DNA of 40,740 nt from Spirochaetes bacterium ADurb.Bin133 (GTDB lineage Bacteria > Spirochaetota > GWE2-31-10 > MWDO01). The translations under genes were made by a program, and so were the position numbers. How positions within the stretch are numbered: the first letter of the stretch is position 1; each line of letters begins with the position of its first letter. The notes under the pieces are model-generated. The model ran no database searches. It had not been told where the DNA came from and saw nothing but the letters and a program-made list of their open reading frames with translations. The DNA lies in contig MWDO01000025.1 in NCBI GenBank assembly GCA_002070605.1, forward strand, positions 1 through 40,740, given 5' to 3'. This document shows positions 3,751-37,083 of this stretch, in pieces.

Positions 3751-4539
3751 TTGAGATTGGGGTACATTTTTACAGATTTTCCTTCGGAAATGAAAAACGG
3801 ATCCACATATGTGTTAAAATGTTTATCTTTTGTTTTGATCGATCAGAAATTCGGAGCGATGATATTTGATACCGGCTCGCCGTCGGATAACGCCAATCTG
3901 GTTTTTCAATTAAAAAAATATTTTGATCTGAATTGCGAAGATATAAAATTTGTTTTTAATACGCACGTTCATCCCGATCATATCGGCGGCAACCGGCTGT
4001 TTACTAACGCCCGTATTATATTTTCTCGAAATGATTTTAACTTTTCAGAAGAGATGGCGAACGTCGCTTTTAGCGGCGGAAATATGCTTGAATTTTTACA
4101 CAGAAGGTGCCCCGGTTACAAGAATTCTTTTGACGAATTTGAAGCGCGCTCGACGGTCAATTATATAAAAAATTATTGGAGTAGAGAGGCGATCGGATTT
4201 AACCAAACTGTATCGTTTATAGAAGATTCGCCAGATATTCCGGAATTTATATCAATAATTCCAACTTTTGGACATACTTTTTATCATTACGCTTTCGAAA
4301 TAAGTTGTAAAGACAAAAAACTTTATATTTCAGGCGACGCGGTGAGCAACAGGTTTATATTGAAAGAGGAAAATAACGATAGAATGTTTGAGCCGCACAT
4401 GGACTTTGAACAATATTTTAAAAGCTTGGATTACTTTAGAAAAATAAATAACCTGATAATCCCGGGACACGACAGACCGTTTTACCCGCAAACGTCGGTA
4501 AGCATAAGGAAAAATCGGTTTAATCTTGACGATTTATAG
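3751..4539 (+). CDS. Metallo-beta-lactamase-fold hydrolase
   Basis: This is a 262-residue MBL-superfamily hydrolase with a probable dinuclear metal site. The HxHxDH motif is in NTHVHPDHIGG (about residues 70-80). A third His follows in GHTFYH, a bridging Asp in ISGDA, and a final His in IPGHDRPF. The compact size resembles lactonase, glyoxalase II-like and MBLAC1-like members, but no substrate can be assigned. The start is TTG, chosen because AAAGGAG lies 8 nt upstream and the recJ stop is only 13 nt away. The TAG stop falls within the left target-site duplication of the mobile repeat inserted just downstream. Confidence 0.85.
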   Translation: MRLGYIFTDFPSEMKNGSTYVLKCLSFVLIDQKFGAMIFDTGSPSDNANLVFQLKKYFDLNCEDIKFVFNTHVHPDHIGGNRLFTNARIIFSRNDFNFSEEMANVAFSGGNMLEFLHRRCPGYKNSFDEFEARSTVNYIKNYWSREAIGFNQTVSFIEDSPDIPEFISIIPTFGHTFYHYAFEISCKDKKLYISGDAVSNRFILKEENNDRMFEPHMDFEQYFKSLDYFRKINNLIIPGHDRPFYPQTSVSIRKNRFNLDDL

Positions 4540-4544
4540 CGTTA

Positions 4545-4718
4545 GTATCCCGTCGGTTTTTTGGGGAGTAACTTTTGAGACGGTTCTTTTAAATTGACAC
4601 ATATGGAGCTGCATACGCCGCGCTGCTCCCCGACGAATAAATTGACACATATGCGTCGATTTATTTTCTGCATCATATGTGTCAATTTTCCTTTCCCCTC
4701 TAAAAAACCGACGGAGCG
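4545..4718 (+). mobile_element. Intact MITE-like element B with inverted termini and a 10-bp duplication
   Basis: The left terminus GTATCCCGTCGGTTTTTTGG starts at 4545. The right terminus TAAAAAACCGACGG ends at 4714 and is followed by AGCG. The direct repeat TATAGCGTTA occurs immediately outside both ends (4535-4544 and 4719-4728), as expected for a target-site duplication. Inside are two forward motif copies (4594-4605, 4642-4653) and one inverted copy (4674-4685). GGAGC and GCTCC at 4605-4628 can form a hairpin. No ORF resembles a transposase, so any movement would need enzymes supplied in trans. Confidence 0.85.
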
Positions 4719-4725
4719 TATAGCG

Positions 4726-4935
4726 TTAATTATTGAAAAAATCTGAAATTTTATTTTTTAGTTCGACGATTCCAAATTTATTTTTAACGGATATGCAGAC
4801 GCCGTCCGAATATGATTTAAAAGCGTTATTGAAGTTTTCCAGCAAGTCGATTTTATTATAGACTTTTAAAGCGGGAATATGATGAGCCGATATTTCTTCG
4901 AGGACTTTCTCGACAGACTCTATATTACTTTTATT
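4726..4935 (-). pseudogene. hflX: 3' remnant of hflX (GTPase C-terminal end)
   Basis: About 68 residues are read on the minus strand from near 4935 to the TAA at 4728-4726. They resemble the end of the HflX ribosome-associated GTPase. NIESVEKVLEEI precedes the G4 motif in IPALKVYNKIDLL, which is followed by a G5-like CISVKN and a final amphipathic helix. HflX is normally around 400 residues; the N-terminal region and the G1-G3 motifs are absent. Homology stops where the upstream block of the neighbouring RHH gene begins. The open frame continues to 5022 only through antisense of that block. Another translational GTPase cannot be excluded, but the spacing fits HflX best. Confidence 0.7.
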
Positions 4936-4949
4936 AAAAATTATCCAAA

Positions 4950-4990
4950 TTTTTGTACAACGTTTTCTACTTTTAGTTGTTATATATATA
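4950..4990 (+). promoter_or_regulatory. Conserved upstream motif (shared with ssb), copy 1
   Basis: The pattern TTTTTGTA, 8 nt, TCTACTTTTAGTTGTTA and an AT-alternating tract ends about 20 nt before the ATG. The same arrangement is found at 8754-8797, 11344-11385 and 36990-37034 (reverse). It is probably a promoter plus regulator site, but no standard -35/-10 pair with 16-18 nt spacing is evident. Confidence 0.6.
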
Positions 4991-5011
4991 AAAGAAAAAG
5001 GAGAAAACTTT

Positions 5012-5527
5012 ATGAGAAACAAAAAACATTTATTTCACTTTATAGTATCCGAATCTATGAATAAGAACGTCATAGATTTTCTACTAAAAGAATTCAAAAT
5101 TAATACGTTCAGTAAACTGTTTGAAACTATGTTTCGCCTTATTGACAAAAAAATCCCAAAAATGAAGAGAATAATAGGGGATCATCGCTCAGAATACGCC
5201 GTTATAGATAATACCGACGATAAAAGGCTGAATAAATATCTCCGGATTAACGAATCTGATTATCTTCAAATAAAAAGATGGCATTCGTTGTATAACGAAT
5301 TCGGTATAGCCTCAACGGTTCGAGATATTATACTGTTTTTCTATAACGGCGTCGCGCAATATGGGTTAGAAGGATTTCTTGATCTTGTTGGTAAGAAATT
5401 GAAAATCGATAGATTGAAAAACGACTTTTTGAATAAAATGACACAACTGTTAAATATCGCCGCTCAAAAACAGCTATTATACGCGCTCGTAATCGAAAAT
5501 TATCCCAAATACGTCTACCGTACGTAA
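5012..5527 (+). CDS. Putative tandem ribbon-helix-helix protein, copy 1
   Basis: This 171-residue basic protein has no family I can name. Two segments have a strand-helix-helix pattern like RHH DNA-binding folds. The first has a strand at about 7-13 (LFHFIVS) and helices at about 15-27 and 32-46. The second has a strand at 75-80 (KYLRIN) and helices at 82-96 (containing DYLQIKRWHSLYNEF) and 99-113. The rest is helical and charged. It differs from the copy at 11406 at about 26 of 171 positions. The start is supported by AAAGGAG and by agreement with the second copy. It lies about 290 nt downstream of repeat element B, and its upstream block truncates hflX. The DNA-binding role is inferred from pattern only. 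Confidence 0.75.
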   Translation: MRNKKHLFHFIVSESMNKNVIDFLLKEFKINTFSKLFETMFRLIDKKIPKMKRIIGDHRSEYAVIDNTDDKRLNKYLRINESDYLQIKRWHSLYNEFGIASTVRDIILFFYNGVAQYGLEGFLDLVGKKLKIDRLKNDFLNKMTQLLNIAAQKQLLYALVIENYPKYVYRT

Positions 5528-11106: not shown

Positions 11107-11129
11107 TATAAATTTTACTAATTCTGGAG

Positions 11130-11288
11130 CCCCGTCGGTTTTTTGGGCAAAGATAAAATTGACGCATATGAAACGCGCCGATAACGCGCGACAATTGTCG
11201 CATGAGAAATTGACACATATGGCGCTAAGGATAAAAATCGACGCATATGAAACGTGTCCAGTCGGTTTTTTGGGAATTGACACATATG
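11130..11288 (+). repeat. TTGACRCATATG repeat cluster C
   Basis: Four motif copies are at 11159-11170, 11210-11221, 11238-11249 (TCGAC variant) and 11277-11288. A left terminus CCCGTCGGTTTTTTGGG is at 11131-11147. A second left-type terminus, CAGTCGGTTTTTTGGG, is at 11259-11274 in the same orientation, so this is a composite of two elements. The first spacer contains the palindrome CGACAATTGTCG and nearly matches a spacer in cluster D. No right terminus is visible before the RHH gene block begins near 11327. Confidence 0.85.
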
Positions 11289-11343
11289 AAACAAATATTT
11301 TTAATCAGTAAATTATTTGTCATTTTCTAAAAATTTATGAAAA

Positions 11344-11385
11344 TTTTTGTAAAGAGTTTTCTACTTTTAGTTGTTATATATATTA
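11344..11385 (+). promoter_or_regulatory. Conserved upstream motif (shared with ssb), copy 2
   Basis: TTTTTGTA, 8 nt, TCTACTTTTAGTTGTTA and an AT-alternating tract lie about 20 nt before the ATG at 11406. The segment is almost the same as that before the first paralogue, so the duplicated block includes the control region. Similarity between the two blocks starts near 11327. Confidence 0.6.
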
Positions 11386-11405
11386 AAGAAAAAGGAGAAA
11401 ATTTT

Positions 11406-11921
11406 ATGAAAAACAAAAAACATCTATTCCATTTTATAGTTTCAGAATCTATGAATAATAACGTCATAGATTTTCTACTAAAGGAGTTCAAAATTAATAC
11501 GTTCAGTAAACTGTTTGAAACTATGTTTCGCCTCGTTAACAAAAAAATACCAAAGATGAAGAGAATAATCGGGAATTGCCGCTCCGAATACGCCGTTATA
11601 GATAGCGTCGATGGTAAAAGATTGGATAAATATCTCAGGATTAGCGAAGCGGACTATCTACAAATAAAAAGATGGCATTCTTTGTATAACGAATTCGGTA
11701 TGGCTTCAACGGTTCGAGATATTATACTGTTCTTCTATAACGGCGTTATGAAATACGGGTTGGAAGGATTTCTTGAGATTGTTGGTAAGAAATTAAGGAT
11801 CGATAAATTGAAAAACGACTTTTTGGGTAGAATGACACAACTGTTAGATATCGCCGCTCGAAAACGGCTACTATACGCGCTCGTAATCGAAAATTATCCC
11901 CAATATGTCTACTATACGTAA
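11406..11921 (+). CDS. Putative tandem ribbon-helix-helix protein, copy 2
   Basis: This is a 171-residue paralogue of the protein at 5012, about 85% identical by eye, with the same two strand-helix-helix segments and conserved centre. Most changes are conservative, which suggests that both copies are maintained as proteins. I start it at 11406 (after AAGGAG) although the frame is open from 11337, because the upstream part is the shared non-coding control region. It lies about 115 nt downstream of repeat cluster C in the same orientation as the repeats. Nucleotide similarity with copy 1 ends within about 6 nt after the stop codon. It resembles no transposase. Confidence 0.77.
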   Translation: MKNKKHLFHFIVSESMNNNVIDFLLKEFKINTFSKLFETMFRLVNKKIPKMKRIIGNCRSEYAVIDSVDGKRLDKYLRISEADYLQIKRWHSLYNEFGMASTVRDIILFFYNGVMKYGLEGFLEIVGKKLRIDKLKNDFLGRMTQLLDIAARKRLLYALVIENYPQYVYYT

Positions 11922-18413: not shown

Positions 18414-21400
18414 ATGGAAAACAATTTGGATGATTATTTGGTTTCGGAAGGGGAGGAGATAGCTTCGATTTCTGAGATGCAAAAATTATTTGTTCAAAAT
18501 AATCGGGAGAATATTTTACGCGGAGATACCAAATCGAATATAAGCGGACAAAACGGGGATGACGACGGCGATTTTACCGACCTTTTTGAAACAGATACGC
18601 CGGAAAATATTTTTATAAACGACAATAAGAGCATAATTGATTCGATAGAGTTCTTAAATTATAAAGATTATTTCCCCGAACTTAGCGTTACGATCGACGA
18701 AGAGATTAGGATGCGAAAAGCTATGACGGCGGATAGCGGCTCGATCGATAGCGCGGAGACTGCCGTTCTCGAAGAAGATCTGTCGGACAAAGCTACTCTT
18801 GAGGAAGTTCCTTTAAAAACCCCAAAACTTAAAAAGAGATATAAAATATCAAATTTTAAAAAATCCGACAATAATAGAGCCGGGCTAACCGAGATTACGG
18901 ATACCGGCGAAATGAAAATAGACGGGCAGGAAATATTATCCGATGAAAAACAGGAGGAGCCTTTTCAGGAAAATATACAAGAAGATATTTTAATTAAAAA
19001 GGAAAATTTCGACGGTCAAATCGACGCGCTCCTAAAAAAAATTAATGACAAAAACAATTCCGTCGCCTATCCGGGTAAAATTGATCTTACAGCTATAGAT
19101 TCGTCTTTGTCTCAAAAAAGTATTAGTTTCGAAAAGGATTCCGAAGATATCGAGTCAGTTAAAGACGACGAGATGTTCGGCGTAAAAAAATCCGAAATAC
19201 TGGACAATATCGATAAGAGTATCAGCGCGTCCAGATCGTCTTCCTCTTTTGATATTTCTAAAATAAAGAATCTTCGCGCCGGTTTTTTTCTGCCTTTAAT
19301 GGTATTTGTAATATCGTTTGCCTTCATATTTTTGGCGATTCCGGCTCTGTCGTTGTATTTTCAAAAAACTTCTACTTCTACGCTCGAGGATAACGTCATA
19401 AACGATAGTTCGATACTTGAGAAAATCGCAAAGCAAAAAGAGGAAGAGGCGAGAAACGCGCGTTTGAGACTCGAAGAGGAGCGTAGGAAACTGGAGAGCG
19501 ATAGAAATAAGATGGAAAGTCTCATTAATGAAGAATCATTCAGAAGGCAGTTAGAGATAGAGAACTTATATAAGGAAAAATATACCGCTTTAGAAAAGAG
19601 AGGATTGTCCGAAGCGGATATAACAAAGATACGTAAACAATTGGAAGACGAGAAGAGAAAAGAGTTGGATAGTGTGGAAAAAGAAAAAGAGCGTCAGATT
19701 AACGAACAAAAAAAGGCGCTTGTCGATAAAAACAGAGAATTGGAAAGTATAGAGAAGAGATTAAAGGACGCTATAGCAAATAAAGAATTTGAGATATCCA
19801 ACATAACCAAAACTCTCGAGACGCAGTTGAAAGAGAAGGACGCGGAAAGAGAGTCGATTTCGAAAAAATTGAAAGAGTTAAGCGAGACTAACGTAAAGAT
19901 AAAAGAATTTAACGACATAATATATCAATTAATATCCGGTTCTATTGACGAATTTAAGAAAAATAACGCCGAATCGGGACTGCTCAAACTAGATACCGTC
20001 TTAAGATATTACGAATCAAGAATAGATTTTGTCAACGCTAATCCCGATCTAAAAAATAAGATGGTTACGGACGTGTTTTTTGTTCAGTCGTTGAATAAAT
20101 ACGTAAGCGATCTCAGATCCTCTTCGACTTTTAATAAAGAATACGTTGAGTTAATCAATAAGTTTAAACAGATCAACGAATATTACAAAAACGCCGAGAC
20201 GTTTTATTCTCAGAGAAACTGGAGTAGGTCAAGCGAGGAGTACGACAAGGTCATCGCTCAAATTAACGAAGTCAACTCTTCATATAAAAGGATCAAAGAG
20301 ATCGATAAGCATATTCAGAATATAAAAGCGGCTAATTACTACAACTCCGCCGTCGAGTATATGAAGTCCGGTAATTACGATTTAGCGTTAAATAATTTTG
20401 GCAACGTAATAAAAGAGACTCCAATGAGCGATTATACGAGCCAATCTGTCGATAGTATATTTGCGCTTTCAAATACATTGTTGGCAAACAAAGATAAAAG
20501 CGAAATTGAGAAGATAAATTCGGCTAACGTCGGGGCGAAAGTATTATTCGACGGCGGCGTAAGGCATCTTCAGAATAAAAGATTTGATCAAGCGGCGGAC
20601 TCTTTTAGCGAAGTAATATTAAAATATCCCATTTCCGATTACGCCAAGCAGTCTCATACAAACCTCGTATTATCTCTGCAAAATAAATATAAAGAAGAAG
20701 AAAACAAGATTTACGCAAACTTAAAGTCAAAATTCAGCGATAATTATGAGAAATACAAAAAATTAAACGACGAAGGCAAATTTCGGGAAGCCAGGGGATA
20801 CTATTTTGCCGCTCTCAATTCGGCTTTTGGGATTTATACCAATGAAACGGTAGAGGAATTTAAGCGGTTTGAAGATCGGTATATATTCGATGAAATTAAC
20901 AAAAATAAAGGCGTAGACGAAAAACAATTAAAAATTCAGCTTGAAACTGCAAAAAAAGAGATAGAAGACGAGTATAACAAACTGTTAAGCGCTCAAAAAG
21001 AGAAATATGAACGGGAAATTGCGGCGGTAAATCTCAAATATAGTCAAGAGATAGCTTCGCTTACCGCCGAAAGAGATAATCTAAAAATAGCTTACGATAA
21101 TTTGTTAAAATCTGCGTCTGAGAACGAAAGCGTAGCGGCTAAATTGAAGGAGTACGACGAAAAATTAAAGCGGAAAGATATCGAATTGGCCGAACTAAAT
21201 GAGAAGTATAAAACCTCCGTCGAAAACGTCGAAGCGGTAAAACTTGAGCTGGAGGAAAAAATAGCAGCGTTGACTAAAGAGAAGGAAACTTTGGAAGCCG
21301 AACTTTATAAAATGAGGGCCGATATGACAAAAGGGGAGGTCGCCGAAGTCGCTCTAAAAACTTTGATTACGGAGAAGGATAAGGAAATTGTTAATTTAAA

Positions 21401-22748
21401 AAAAGAGAAGTCTGAAGCTATTAAAACGGCTGAGTTTGTAAAAAAAATGCATGAGGACGAATTAGCTAAGATTAGAGTAGAAAAAGATATGTTAACCGCC
21501 GGTTTGGAAGATATTCGTAAAGAAAATGCCGGATATAAAACGAGTATCGAAAATTATACAAAACAGTTAAGGGATAAAGACGCGACGATCGCCGCTTTAA
21601 ATAAAAAATATAGCGAATTGGAGAAGAGTTTGTCGGCGACAAAGTCGAACGTCGAAGAGTTGAAGAGACTGGAAGAGCTTGCCGCTAAATACAAAACCGA
21701 GAGAGATAAAATTCAGTCGGATTACGATAATCTTTTGAAAAACAGAGAAGGCGAGGAGATGTATAAGAAGCTGATCGCTCAGAAAGAGAGTGAAATCTCA
21801 AATTTAAACTCTCTAATTGAAGCGGAGAAATCAAAGAATATCGAATCGGCAAAAAAATATGAAAGAACGATAGCAAATTTGCAGAGAGATAAAGAGACGT
21901 TAGAAAAAGAGTATAAAATATTGCATGAAAAAAGGGCTTCCAACGAAGACGTTAGTTTGGAAGTGGCAAAGGTTAAGAAAAGATACGACGAGATTATTGT
22001 ATTAAAAGACAGAGAGATAGAAAAATTGAAAAACGCTCCTCCCGTAACTTATACCGATGAAAAAATTAAAAACGAACTGGCCAGGATAGAGAAAGAGTTG
22101 CAGAACGAAAAAATTAATTCTCAAAAATTAAAAGAGCAGCTGGTTGAGACGTATAAAAAGTATAGCGAACTTGAAACTAAAAATAAGTTGTCTTCCGGAG
22201 AACTTGCCGATAAATACAAAAATATGTACGATAAATTGCAGGAAGATTATAAAAAACTTGATAGCGAACTGAAAAAGGCGCGCAGCGATAAAGAAAACTA
22301 TGAAAATACGCTGACTAATAAGATAAAAGCGGAATATGAAGAGAAATTCAAACAAGACAAACAGGAACTTATAAAAAATTTTAATATCGAACTTGATAGG
22401 TTAAATAAAATAATTCTTCTGCAAAATAAAATAGATAACGCGAAAAAATATTCAGATAAGGATACGGAGAGCGGAGATAGTTTAAATACAAAGTTATTGG
22501 CTCGAATAGTTGATAAAATAGGAGATTCTGTCTCTTTTCAATTCTTTTCGTTGGATTCCGTATCTAAAGTAAAACGGGGAGATATACTGACCGTAGTAAG
22601 GATCGCAAAAATCGGCGGCGATAACAAGGAGTTGATCGTAGGAAAAATCGAGGTAACGCATACCGACGTCAAATCTATTTATGGAAGAGGAGTTGCGAAA
22701 AGCGCCAATTCCGGCTTCAATATAGAAATAAACGATTTAATAAGATAA
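18414..22748 (+). CDS. Giant membrane-anchored coiled-coil protein with TPR-like insert
   Basis: This 1444-residue protein is not recognised as a named family. A hydrophilic, probably cytoplasmic N-terminal region (1-290) precedes one membrane segment at about 293-315 (LPLMVFVISFAFIFLAIPAL). A long coiled coil rich in E, K and R follows (345-510). A TPR-like section (about 560-800) contains YYNSAVEYMKSGNYDLALNN and LFDGGVRHLQNKRFDQAADS. A second coiled coil spans about 830-1330. A globular C-terminal domain of about 95 residues (LARIVDKIGDSVSFQFF, GDILTVVRI) ends the protein. It could span the periplasm. It is preceded by the PEGA/TPR gene and followed 5 nt later by the RseC-like gene. Confidence 0.8.
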   Translation: MENNLDDYLVSEGEEIASISEMQKLFVQNNRENILRGDTKSNISGQNGDDDGDFTDLFETDTPENIFINDNKSIIDSIEFLNYKDYFPELSVTIDEEIRMRKAMTADSGSIDSAETAVLEEDLSDKATLEEVPLKTPKLKKRYKISNFKKSDNNRAGLTEITDTGEMKIDGQEILSDEKQEEPFQENIQEDILIKKENFDGQIDALLKKINDKNNSVAYPGKIDLTAIDSSLSQKSISFEKDSEDIESVKDDEMFGVKKSEILDNIDKSISASRSSSSFDISKIKNLRAGFFLPLMVFVISFAFIFLAIPALSLYFQKTSTSTLEDNVINDSSILEKIAKQKEEEARNARLRLEEERRKLESDRNKMESLINEESFRRQLEIENLYKEKYTALEKRGLSEADITKIRKQLEDEKRKELDSVEKEKERQINEQKKALVDKNRELESIEKRLKDAIANKEFEISNITKTLETQLKEKDAERESISKKLKELSETNVKIKEFNDIIYQLISGSIDEFKKNNAESGLLKLDTVLRYYESRIDFVNANPDLKNKMVTDVFFVQSLNKYVSDLRSSSTFNKEYVELINKFKQINEYYKNAETFYSQRNWSRSSEEYDKVIAQINEVNSSYKRIKEIDKHIQNIKAANYYNSAVEYMKSGNYDLALNNFGNVIKETPMSDYTSQSVDSIFALSNTLLANKDKSEIEKINSANVGAKVLFDGGVRHLQNKRFDQAADSFSEVILKYPISDYAKQSHTNLVLSLQNKYKEEENKIYANLKSKFSDNYEKYKKLNDEGKFREARGYYFAALNSAFGIYTNETVEEFKRFEDRYIFDEINKNKGVDEKQLKIQLETAKKEIEDEYNKLLSAQKEKYEREIAAVNLKYSQEIASLTAERDNLKIAYDNLLKSASENESVAAKLKEYDEKLKRKDIELAELNEKYKTSVENVEAVKLELEEKIAALTKEKETLEAELYKMRADMTKGEVAEVALKTLITEKDKEIVNLKKEKSEAIKTAEFVKKMHEDELAKIRVEKDMLTAGLEDIRKENAGYKTSIENYTKQLRDKDATIAALNKKYSELEKSLSATKSNVEELKRLEELAAKYKTERDKIQSDYDNLLKNREGEEMYKKLIAQKESEISNLNSLIEAEKSKNIESAKKYERTIANLQRDKETLEKEYKILHEKRASNEDVSLEVAKVKKRYDEIIVLKDREIEKLKNAPPVTYTDEKIKNELARIEKELQNEKINSQKLKEQLVETYKKYSELETKNKLSSGELADKYKNMYDKLQEDYKKLDSELKKARSDKENYENTLTNKIKAEYEEKFKQDKQELIKNFNIELDRLNKIILLQNKIDNAKKYSDKDTESGDSLNTKLLARIVDKIGDSVSFQFFSLDSVSKVKRGDILTVVRIAKIGGDNKELIVGKIEVTHTDVKSIYGRGVAKSANSGFNIEINDLIR

Positions 22749-23191: not shown

Positions 23192-23386
23192 CGTATCCCG
23201 TCGGTTTTTTTGGCGGAAGTAAATTGACGCATATGAGACGCGTCGATAACGCGCGACAATTGTCGTATAAAATTGACACATATGCGCCCCGCGTCGCGCT
23301 TCCTGATAGAAAATGACACATATGGGACGCGCCGCTCCTCTATAAAATTTGACACATATGGAGCTAAAAATAATTCGACGCATATG
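23192..23386 (+). repeat. TTGACRCATATG repeat cluster D
   Basis: The left terminus CGTATCCCGTCGGTTTTTTT starts at 23192. Five motif copies follow at 23224-23235, 23273-23284, 23313-23324 (ATGAC variant), 23349-23360 and 23375-23386 (TCGAC variant). Spacing falls from 49 to 26 nt along the cluster. The first spacer contains CGACAATTGTCG as in cluster C. No right terminus is present; a decayed RHH gene end follows directly. Confidence 0.87.
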
Positions 23387-23400
23387 GGACAGGTATTTCG

Positions 23401-23469
23401 GATAAAACGACGCAATTGCTAAATATCGCCGCTCGAGAACGGAAATTATATATATTTTGTAAAAAATAA
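23401..23469 (+). pseudogene. 3' remnant of a third RHH-like gene
   Basis: Translation from 23401 gives DKTTQLLNIAARERKLY and then a stop at 23467. The intact copies read NKMTQLLNIAAQKQLLY and GRMTQLLDIAARKRLLY near residues 140-157. The DNA also matches (ATCGCCGCTCGAGAACGG against ATCGCCGCTCGAAAACGG). The first 140 codons and the last part of the gene are missing. It lies 14 nt after cluster D in the same orientation as at the other two loci. Confidence 0.75.
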
Positions 23470-28923: not shown

Positions 28924-28943
28924 TCCGAATATTTAGTCAATAG

Positions 28944-29099
28944 CCGCTCCGTCGGTTTTTTGGGGAATAACAAATATACACATATGGAGCTAAAAATAAA
29001 AATGACACATATGGAGCTATACGCGGCGCTCCTCGATGAGAGAATTGACGCATATGGAGCTCCATACGCCGCGCCGCTCCAAAAAACCGACGGGATACG
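28944..29099 (+). mobile_element. Intact MITE-like element E with perfect 15-bp inverted termini
   Basis: The left end CCGCTCCGTCGGTTTTTTGG (28944 on) and the right end CCAAAAAACCGACGGGATACG (to 29099) share a perfect 15-bp inverted repeat. GTCAATAG occurs directly outside both ends (28936-28943 and 29100-29107). Three motif copies are at 28975-28986 (TATAC variant), 29002-29013 (ATGAC variant) and 29045-29056. GGAGC/GCTCC hairpins occupy 29013-29032 and 29056-29080. It lies between the convergent ends of the RND and OPRT-like genes and encodes nothing recognisable. Confidence 0.85.
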
Positions 29100-29119
29100 G
29101 TCAATAGAGCGTAATGGGA

Positions 29120-34233: not shown

Positions 34234-34267
34234 TTAATTGAAAGCAATAATTTTTTTTTGTAATTCT

Positions 34268-34455
34268 TCAGTTTTTTGGGGTAAGAAAAAATTGACACAT
34301 ATGGGACGCTGCGCTCCCCGAGATAATTTGACACATATGGACCGCATAGCCGCCGCGTCGCTTCTCGATATAAATTGACACATATGAGGCGCTGTGTTCC
34401 TCGATGAGAAATTGACACATATGCGACGCCGGCAAATCCCCAAAAAACCGACGAG
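34268..34455 (+). repeat. TTGACRCATATG repeat cluster G
   Basis: Four exact TTGACACATATG copies are at 34292-34303, 34328-34339, 34375-34386 and 34412-34423. A degraded left terminus (CAGTTTTTTGGGG) and a good right terminus (CCCCAAAAAACCGACG) are present. Spacer hairpins differ in sequence but keep pairing: GGGA/TCCC (34303-34318) and GAGG/CCTC (34386-34402). It lies between the MBL-cNMP stop and the aminotransferase promoter. Confidence 0.88.
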
Positions 34456-34480
34456 ACGCAAATTTTTTTGGTAAAAAAAA

Positions 34481-36949: not shown

Positions 36950-36989
36950 AATTTTCTCCAAATTTTTAAGGTTAAAATTTTAATTCGAT

Positions 36990-37034
36990 TATATATATAA
37001 ATAACAACAAAAAGTTGATTTCGTTATACAAAAA
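36990..37034 (-). promoter_or_regulatory. Conserved upstream motif (shared with ssb), copy 4
   Basis: On the minus strand it reads TTTTTGTA, 8 nt, TCAACTTTTTGTTGTTA, then an AT-alternating tract ending TATAATCG. It is about 40 nt before the ATG at 36949. It keeps the CAAC/GTTG inverted repeat with a five-T loop. Confidence 0.6.
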
Positions 37035-37054
37035 AAAATATTATTCTTATGTTT

Positions 37055-37083
37055 TTGACAAAAAAATATTTTTTTGATATAAT
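37055..37083 (+). promoter_or_regulatory. Promoter of the PH-domain membrane protein gene
   Basis: TTGACA (37055-37060), 17 nt, TATAAT (37078-37083): both consensus boxes with ideal spacing. Start codon 71 nt downstream. Confidence 0.7.

Follow-up and report, generated by a model that had tools for sequence, protein, structure and literature searches.

The 174-base repeat at positions 4545 to 4718 of the window is a true mobile element of small size, and it came to lie between two genes by insertion. The window is the whole stretch of DNA analysed, 40,740 nt from Spirochaetes bacterium ADurb.Bin133 (GCA_002070605.1, contig MWDO01000025.1, forward strand, positions 1 to 40,740). The repeat, called element B below, belongs to a dispersed family whose interiors are mosaics of short cassettes and whose full-length members encode a protein of 171 aa. 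The features of the locus are as follows.

3751 to 4539, plus strand: metallo-beta-lactamase-superfamily hydrolase gene, the left flank (PF00753, E 5e-15; 89% protein identity in the sister species G001)
4535 to 4544, unstranded: left target-duplication copy TATAGCGTTA, including the metallo-hydrolase TAG; single copy in G001
4545 to 4718, unstranded: element B, a gene-less, non-autonomous family copy
4545 to 4571, plus strand: left terminal inverted repeat GTATCCCGTCGGTTTTTTGGGGAGTAA
4591 to 4605, plus strand: half-site AAATTGACACATATG
4606 to 4637, plus strand: cassette of type C, a GGAGC...GCTCC hairpin, followed by the next half-site
4639 to 4653, plus strand: half-site AAATTGACACATATG
4674 to 4688, minus strand: inverted half-site (CATATGTGTCAATTT)
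4693 to 4718, minus strand: right terminal inverted repeat
4719 to 4728, unstranded: right target-duplication copy TATAGCGTTA, overlapping the TAA of the hflX scrap
4726 to 4931, minus strand: duplicated 3' scrap of hflX, the right flank; G001 hflX homology stops at 4931

Element B is 174 to 175 bp long, is without the 171-aa gene, and folds as RNA into a strong hairpin (z = -6.4). Its left inverted repeat reads GTATCCCGTCGGTTTTTTGGGG and the right side is the near-complement, the pair covering 22 nt at 82% complementarity (4550-4571/4693-4714) just within the duplication. An earlier note, made from the letters alone, had described inverted termini and a flanking direct repeat at this place, and both are borne out. 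The stop codons also lie where that note put them, with the metallo-hydrolase TAG (4537-4539) in the left copy of the repeat and the TAA of the hflX frame (complement, 4726-4728) overlapping the right copy. The duplication was given as 10 bp, and ten bases do match, but the best length across the family is 9 bp (8 in some copies), counted from 6 nt outside the CGTCGG of the end (GTAATC/CGTCGG), which means that at element B the tenth base of the match could be part of the element's end or a coincidence.

The single comparison genome with an empty site is that of Spirochaetes bacterium isolate Go_SlDig_bin_318 (G001; JAGOCL010000131.1), a sister species of the same genus. There the metallo-hydrolase runs into hflX with no gap over 1747 aligned bp when compared with the window minus element B and one repeat, and the single target copy at the junction reads TGTAACGTTA. 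Since G001 has the same gene pair with no element and one copy of the target, element B inserted as a discrete unit and duplicated its target. This is the empty site that had been proposed as a check, and with it the mobility of the repeat, until then a guess, is demonstrated. The two stops are 2 nt apart at the G001 junction, and excision of the element from the window gives the same count; they nearly abut, as expected, but not by the figure of about 3 nt given before. The idea that a unit of about 174 bp moves holds for the insertion with its target duplication, but not as a fixed size, which varies in what is a modular family. A chance direct repeat as the source of the TATAGCGTTA pair is ruled out by the empty site, by the duplications found across the family, and by the probability of a flush 10-mer, about 2e-6 at the composition of the window.

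Two further copies in the window are also absent from the matching places in G001.

28944 to 29098, unstranded: family copy with both ends, flanked by GTCAATAG at 28936-28943 and 29100-29107
34260 to 34459, unstranded: family copy with both ends

The DNA of G001 runs on at both places without any element. Because intergenic DNA has diverged, the alignments are looser there, and the place matching 34260 also holds an extra gene in between. Elsewhere in the window, an AT-rich intergenic stretch (36978-37056) has 81 to 87% identity to at least 8 other places in G001 and is a second dispersed repeat, common to both species. A 1444-aa ORF at 18414-22748 has no Pfam match at E 1e-8.

The ends of the family read GTAATCCGTCGGTTTTTTGGGG, and its members have about 22 nt of end in common. 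The end motif CGTCGGTTTTTTGGGG occurs, at up to 2 mismatches, 225 times per strand in the 2.99-Mb genome, compared with 1 and 0 for the reversed-pattern control. This amounts to about 450 ends in ADurb.Bin133 (G000, a 103-contig assembly), and 20 relatives have 0 to 8 per genome on both strands together. Pairing was sampled in stretches totalling 440 kb of the genome, in which 92 of 109 ends were paired within 700 bp. A duplication scoring at least 8 was present at 30% of 46 terminal-repeat pairs from these stretches, versus 0.8% when left and right flanks were taken from different elements. None of 44 elements lay inside an ORF, though 83% of the sample is coding. The family ranges in size from 83 bp to about 900 bp (83 to 358 bp for the sampled gene-less copies), and one copy is nested in the array of another with its own duplication, CGTCGAAT (L082). 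At least one element in G001 has family ends around an unrelated interior (L137:1229-1340), and the ends therefore predate the burst in ADurb.Bin133. Many contigs of the assembly (e.g., C9, C21, C23, C27, C57, C81, and C85) start or stop in cassette arrays or in copies of the 171-aa gene; the family thus interrupts the assembly, and the real number of copies is probably above that counted. Two end-like motifs at L085:12995-13236 enclose a tRNA-like sequence (anticodon CAT by eye) without any duplication, and they are possibly unrelated partial ends.

Between the ends, the interiors switch from one cassette type to another at a GACRCATATG site. The cassettes end in AAATTGAC(A/G)CATATG and begin directly past CATATG, in both orientations, and the full palindrome GACACATATGTGTC is made up of two opposite half-sites with one CATATG in common. 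Alignment ends proved a weak test of the joints because the joint itself aligns, and in-register identity was used instead. Within cassette types B, D, E, and U this identity is 0.82 to 0.89, and 40 to 60 bases past a joint it drops to 0.26 to 0.37, near the composition background of 0.27. There are at least 7 kinds of cassette, found in both orientations, and cassette C can be repeated in tandem with a unit of about 47 bp. Spacings between sites cluster at 26-27, 36-39, and 46-49 bp and match the cassette types, so a helical-phase reading of them is only suggestive. A CRISPR-like array is ruled out, as the units are recurring hairpin cassettes of 47 to 48 bp and not unique spacers. Related palindromes occur in other genomes. 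In G002, of the same taxonomic family, dispersed TTGCCACATATGTGGCAA palindromes have A/T runs on either side (L105 and L106); they have the core CACATATGTG in common with the window family and differ in their flanks. Sites like GACACATATGTGTC lie in low-complexity repetitive stretches of G001 (L090, L095, and L104), one of which holds a 22-bp tandem array (L104).

The 171-aa gene came to light through ends that lacked a partner. A full-length copy consists of a left end, cassettes, a conserved leader, the gene, and a right end tens of bases past the stop, and the window contains the following parts of such copies.

4929 to 5011, plus strand: leader or promoter segment common to the gene copies
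5012 to 5527, plus strand: 171-aa gene, copy 1; its element lacks the outer ends
11128 to 11921, plus strand: gene-bearing family copy with left ends at 11133 and 11260, cassettes, leader, and gene; right end not recognisable
11406 to 11921, plus strand: 171-aa gene, copy 2
23194 to 23454, plus strand: family copy comprising a left end, cassettes, and a gene relic of 55 bp (23396-23450)

Matches to the protein number 83 in the ADurb.Bin133 genome and 13 in G001, and a profile search found it in 6 of 198 spirochaete genomes, all of the same order; no viral homologues were found. Of 50 gene copies examined, 45 are intact, and with a dN/dS of about 0.12 the gene is under purifying selection. The gene tree is star-like, with a dS of 0.46 between copies versus 0.94 to 1.04 between species; at about half the between-species value, this places the burst after the species split. 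The survival of dispersed copies in intact form at a dS of 0.46 speaks for an importance of the protein, to element or host, beyond a single burst. Segments have been exchanged among the copies, for which summed squared run lengths reach 1.71 million versus 1.46 million when permuted (0 of 100 permutations as high). Linkage disequilibrium is almost absent beyond about 25 bp, but since a star-shaped tree yields the same pattern, the run-length test was used in place of this decay as evidence of gene conversion. One gene-bearing copy has both ends and an 8-bp duplication, GGAGTAAA (L214). Among 20 gene-bearing copies with both ends, a duplication scoring at least 8 survives in only 3, so this part of the family is older or has often been rearranged. 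In many gene-less elements the same leader end is joined directly to the right end; from these joints, and from the gene relic in the copy at 23194, the small elements are at least partly deletion derivatives.

The right flank of element B provides an example of rearrangement. What had been read as an hflX remnant is the true 3' end of hflX, about 206 bp, but it is a duplicate scrap fused to the leader of the repeated gene, with the intact hflX on another contig. The full-length gene is at G000:C18:17616-18710 (GTP-bdg_N, GTP-bdg_M, and MMR_HSR1 domains), and 201 of the 206 bases of the scrap are identical to it. Homology to hflX in the window ends at about 4931, where the leader starts, and directly at the 3' end of the C18 gene there is a gene-bearing family element where the metallo-hydrolase would stand. 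The simplest reading of this arrangement is that recombination between family copies after the insertion made the scrap.

The position of the GACRCATATG site suggests what the 171-aa protein may do. Upstream of the gene, 47 of 48 copies have a half-site no more than 170 bp away (0.10 expected from genome density), mostly at 120 to 135 bp and typically at about 123 bp. In G001, homologues that are 38 to 45% identical have the site 113 to 186 bp upstream with one mismatch allowed (one distance being measured from a truncated start), and G001 loci picked independently of the palindrome contain 3 sites in 66 kb. The site is absent upstream of more remote homologues in G005 and G008. We infer that the protein recognises GACRCATATG, for which the upstream site is the best evidence. 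The fold is perhaps ribbon-helix-helix-like, judging by matches below the cut-off in two remote members of the family (RHH_1, E 0.044; RHH_3, E 0.041). The window protein has no database match, matches no known family, and has no relative in the PDB, and an AlphaFold2 model built from just the two window sequences was unusable. Leptospira DUF1564, considered as a candidate, is not among the Pfam matches, and no papers on it were found. Residues H9, Y84, K88, H91, and R104 are invariant in the family alignment (A3).

Taken together, these results can be accommodated in one account, which we consider probable as a whole. In it, element B is a non-autonomous MITE-type element that arrived between the metallo-hydrolase and the convergent hflX gene once G001 had split off, and a staggered cut in the target was filled in to leave the duplication of 9 to 10 bp. 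Insertion by DDE transposases typically leaves a short duplication of fixed length at inverted ends, and a separate enzyme of this type would cut and join at the family ends. The 171-aa protein most likely binds GACRCATATG, would control its own gene, and would help the family to spread or persist. Recombination between copies would shuffle cassettes and rearrange flanks, and at this locus may have left the hflX scrap here and the whole gene elsewhere. Searches of the genome found no DDE_Tnp_1 (IS4/IS5-type) or IS66 transposase, and IS256 (Transposase_mut) appears only as two short fragments (L135 and L136), apparently its sole trace. There is no intact transposase of these three kinds with family ends in the genome, and a search of the 440 kb for long end pairs around a transposase turned up the 171-aa gene instead. 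The mobiliser may belong to a family outside DDE_Tnp_1, IS66, and IS256, may have been lost, or may be the 171-aa protein itself.

In the last case, the protein would be a novel type of small transposase or recombinase with the ends or GACACATATGTGTC as its substrate, and the gene-bearing copies would be autonomous. It is the sole gene within the element, lies beside its site, and is intact in 45 of 50 copies and under purifying selection, the five invariant residues could be catalytic, and no other transposase with family ends was found. However, 171 aa is short for a DDE enzyme, the protein matches no family or PDB entry, and its weak matches are to DNA-binding domains of the ribbon-helix-helix type, so we consider this reading unlikely. 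A single-gene mobile element of a new type, in which a protein so far found in one spirochaete order alone uses GACRCATATG both to move the element and to cut and join cassettes, is a long shot; if true, the genome would be a self-shuffling cassette library within hundreds of small transposons. Alternatively, an IS256-type transposase, now in fragments, mobilises or once mobilised the elements, and the 171-aa gene rides along as a passenger that has its own function, either for the host or selfish. The two IS256 fragments and the duplication length (8 to 9 bp is usual for IS256) speak for it, but neither fragment has family ends nearby, and we regard it as quite unlikely. It is scarcely credible that the element is ancestral and was lost precisely from G001 since, although recombination between repeats of 9 to 10 bp could in principle do this, the element is missing at all 3 comparable window sites, G001 is almost without family ends, and the dS values place the burst after the split.

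Under the preferred account, with a site-binding 171-aa protein and a separate transposase, a protein acting as a regulator would represent an unusual DNA-binding gene family spread along with its sites. Should it instead be the driver of mobility or of the exchange of cassettes, the protein would represent a novel class for mobile elements.

No published description of the family was found in a literature search, and nothing in the window matches Rfam. As a structure, element B is a MITE; it has terminal inverted repeats and a target duplication, and it is short and without a transposase gene. Its gene-bearing relatives with the same ends encode the 171-aa protein, and no DDE_Tnp_1, IS66, or IS256 transposase with these ends was found. 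Like REP sequences with their RAYT genes, the family ties dispersed intergenic palindromes to a small gene family. RAYT (Y1 transposase) insertions leave no target duplication and the RAYT gene is usually single-copy, whereas about 80 gene copies lie inside elements of the window family and duplications are present, the feature on which the two are set apart.

Among described repeats, the Correia elements of Neisseria are 100 to 155 bp long with 26-bp inverted repeats and a TA duplication (PMC3898611). The window family resembles them, and MITEs in general, in being short, gene-less, intergenic, and of high copy number, with inverted ends, a target duplication, and a strong hairpin fold. It differs in its ends, in a duplication of 8 to 10 bp in place of TA, in its variable cassette interior, and in having relatives with a conserved gene. 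The Neisserial intergenic mosaic elements (NIME) are built with RS repeats and the dRS3 separator ATTCCC(N8)GGGAAT (PMC3898611). Here too recurring cassettes are parted by a short inverted-repeat motif that numbers in the hundreds per genome, with the change of cassette at the separator, but the separator is GACACATATGTGTC, GACRCATATG(YGTC), with no dRS3, and the mosaic sits within transposon-like ends with target duplications. The BOX elements of streptococci have the structure boxA-boxB(n)-boxC (PMC3049150). Like the window family, they have a folded RNA and fixed ends that enclose tandem modules of about 45 to 50 bp in varying number, and the BOX of S. suis also has several kinds of module. 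The window family departs from the single module kind of boxA-boxB(n)-boxC in its seven or more cassette kinds in both orientations, its site-specific joint, its inverted-repeat ends, and its gene-bearing versions. The family therefore fits no one known kind, combining MITE-like ends and duplications with BOX- or NIME-like mosaics and dozens of intact copies of an uncharacterised gene.
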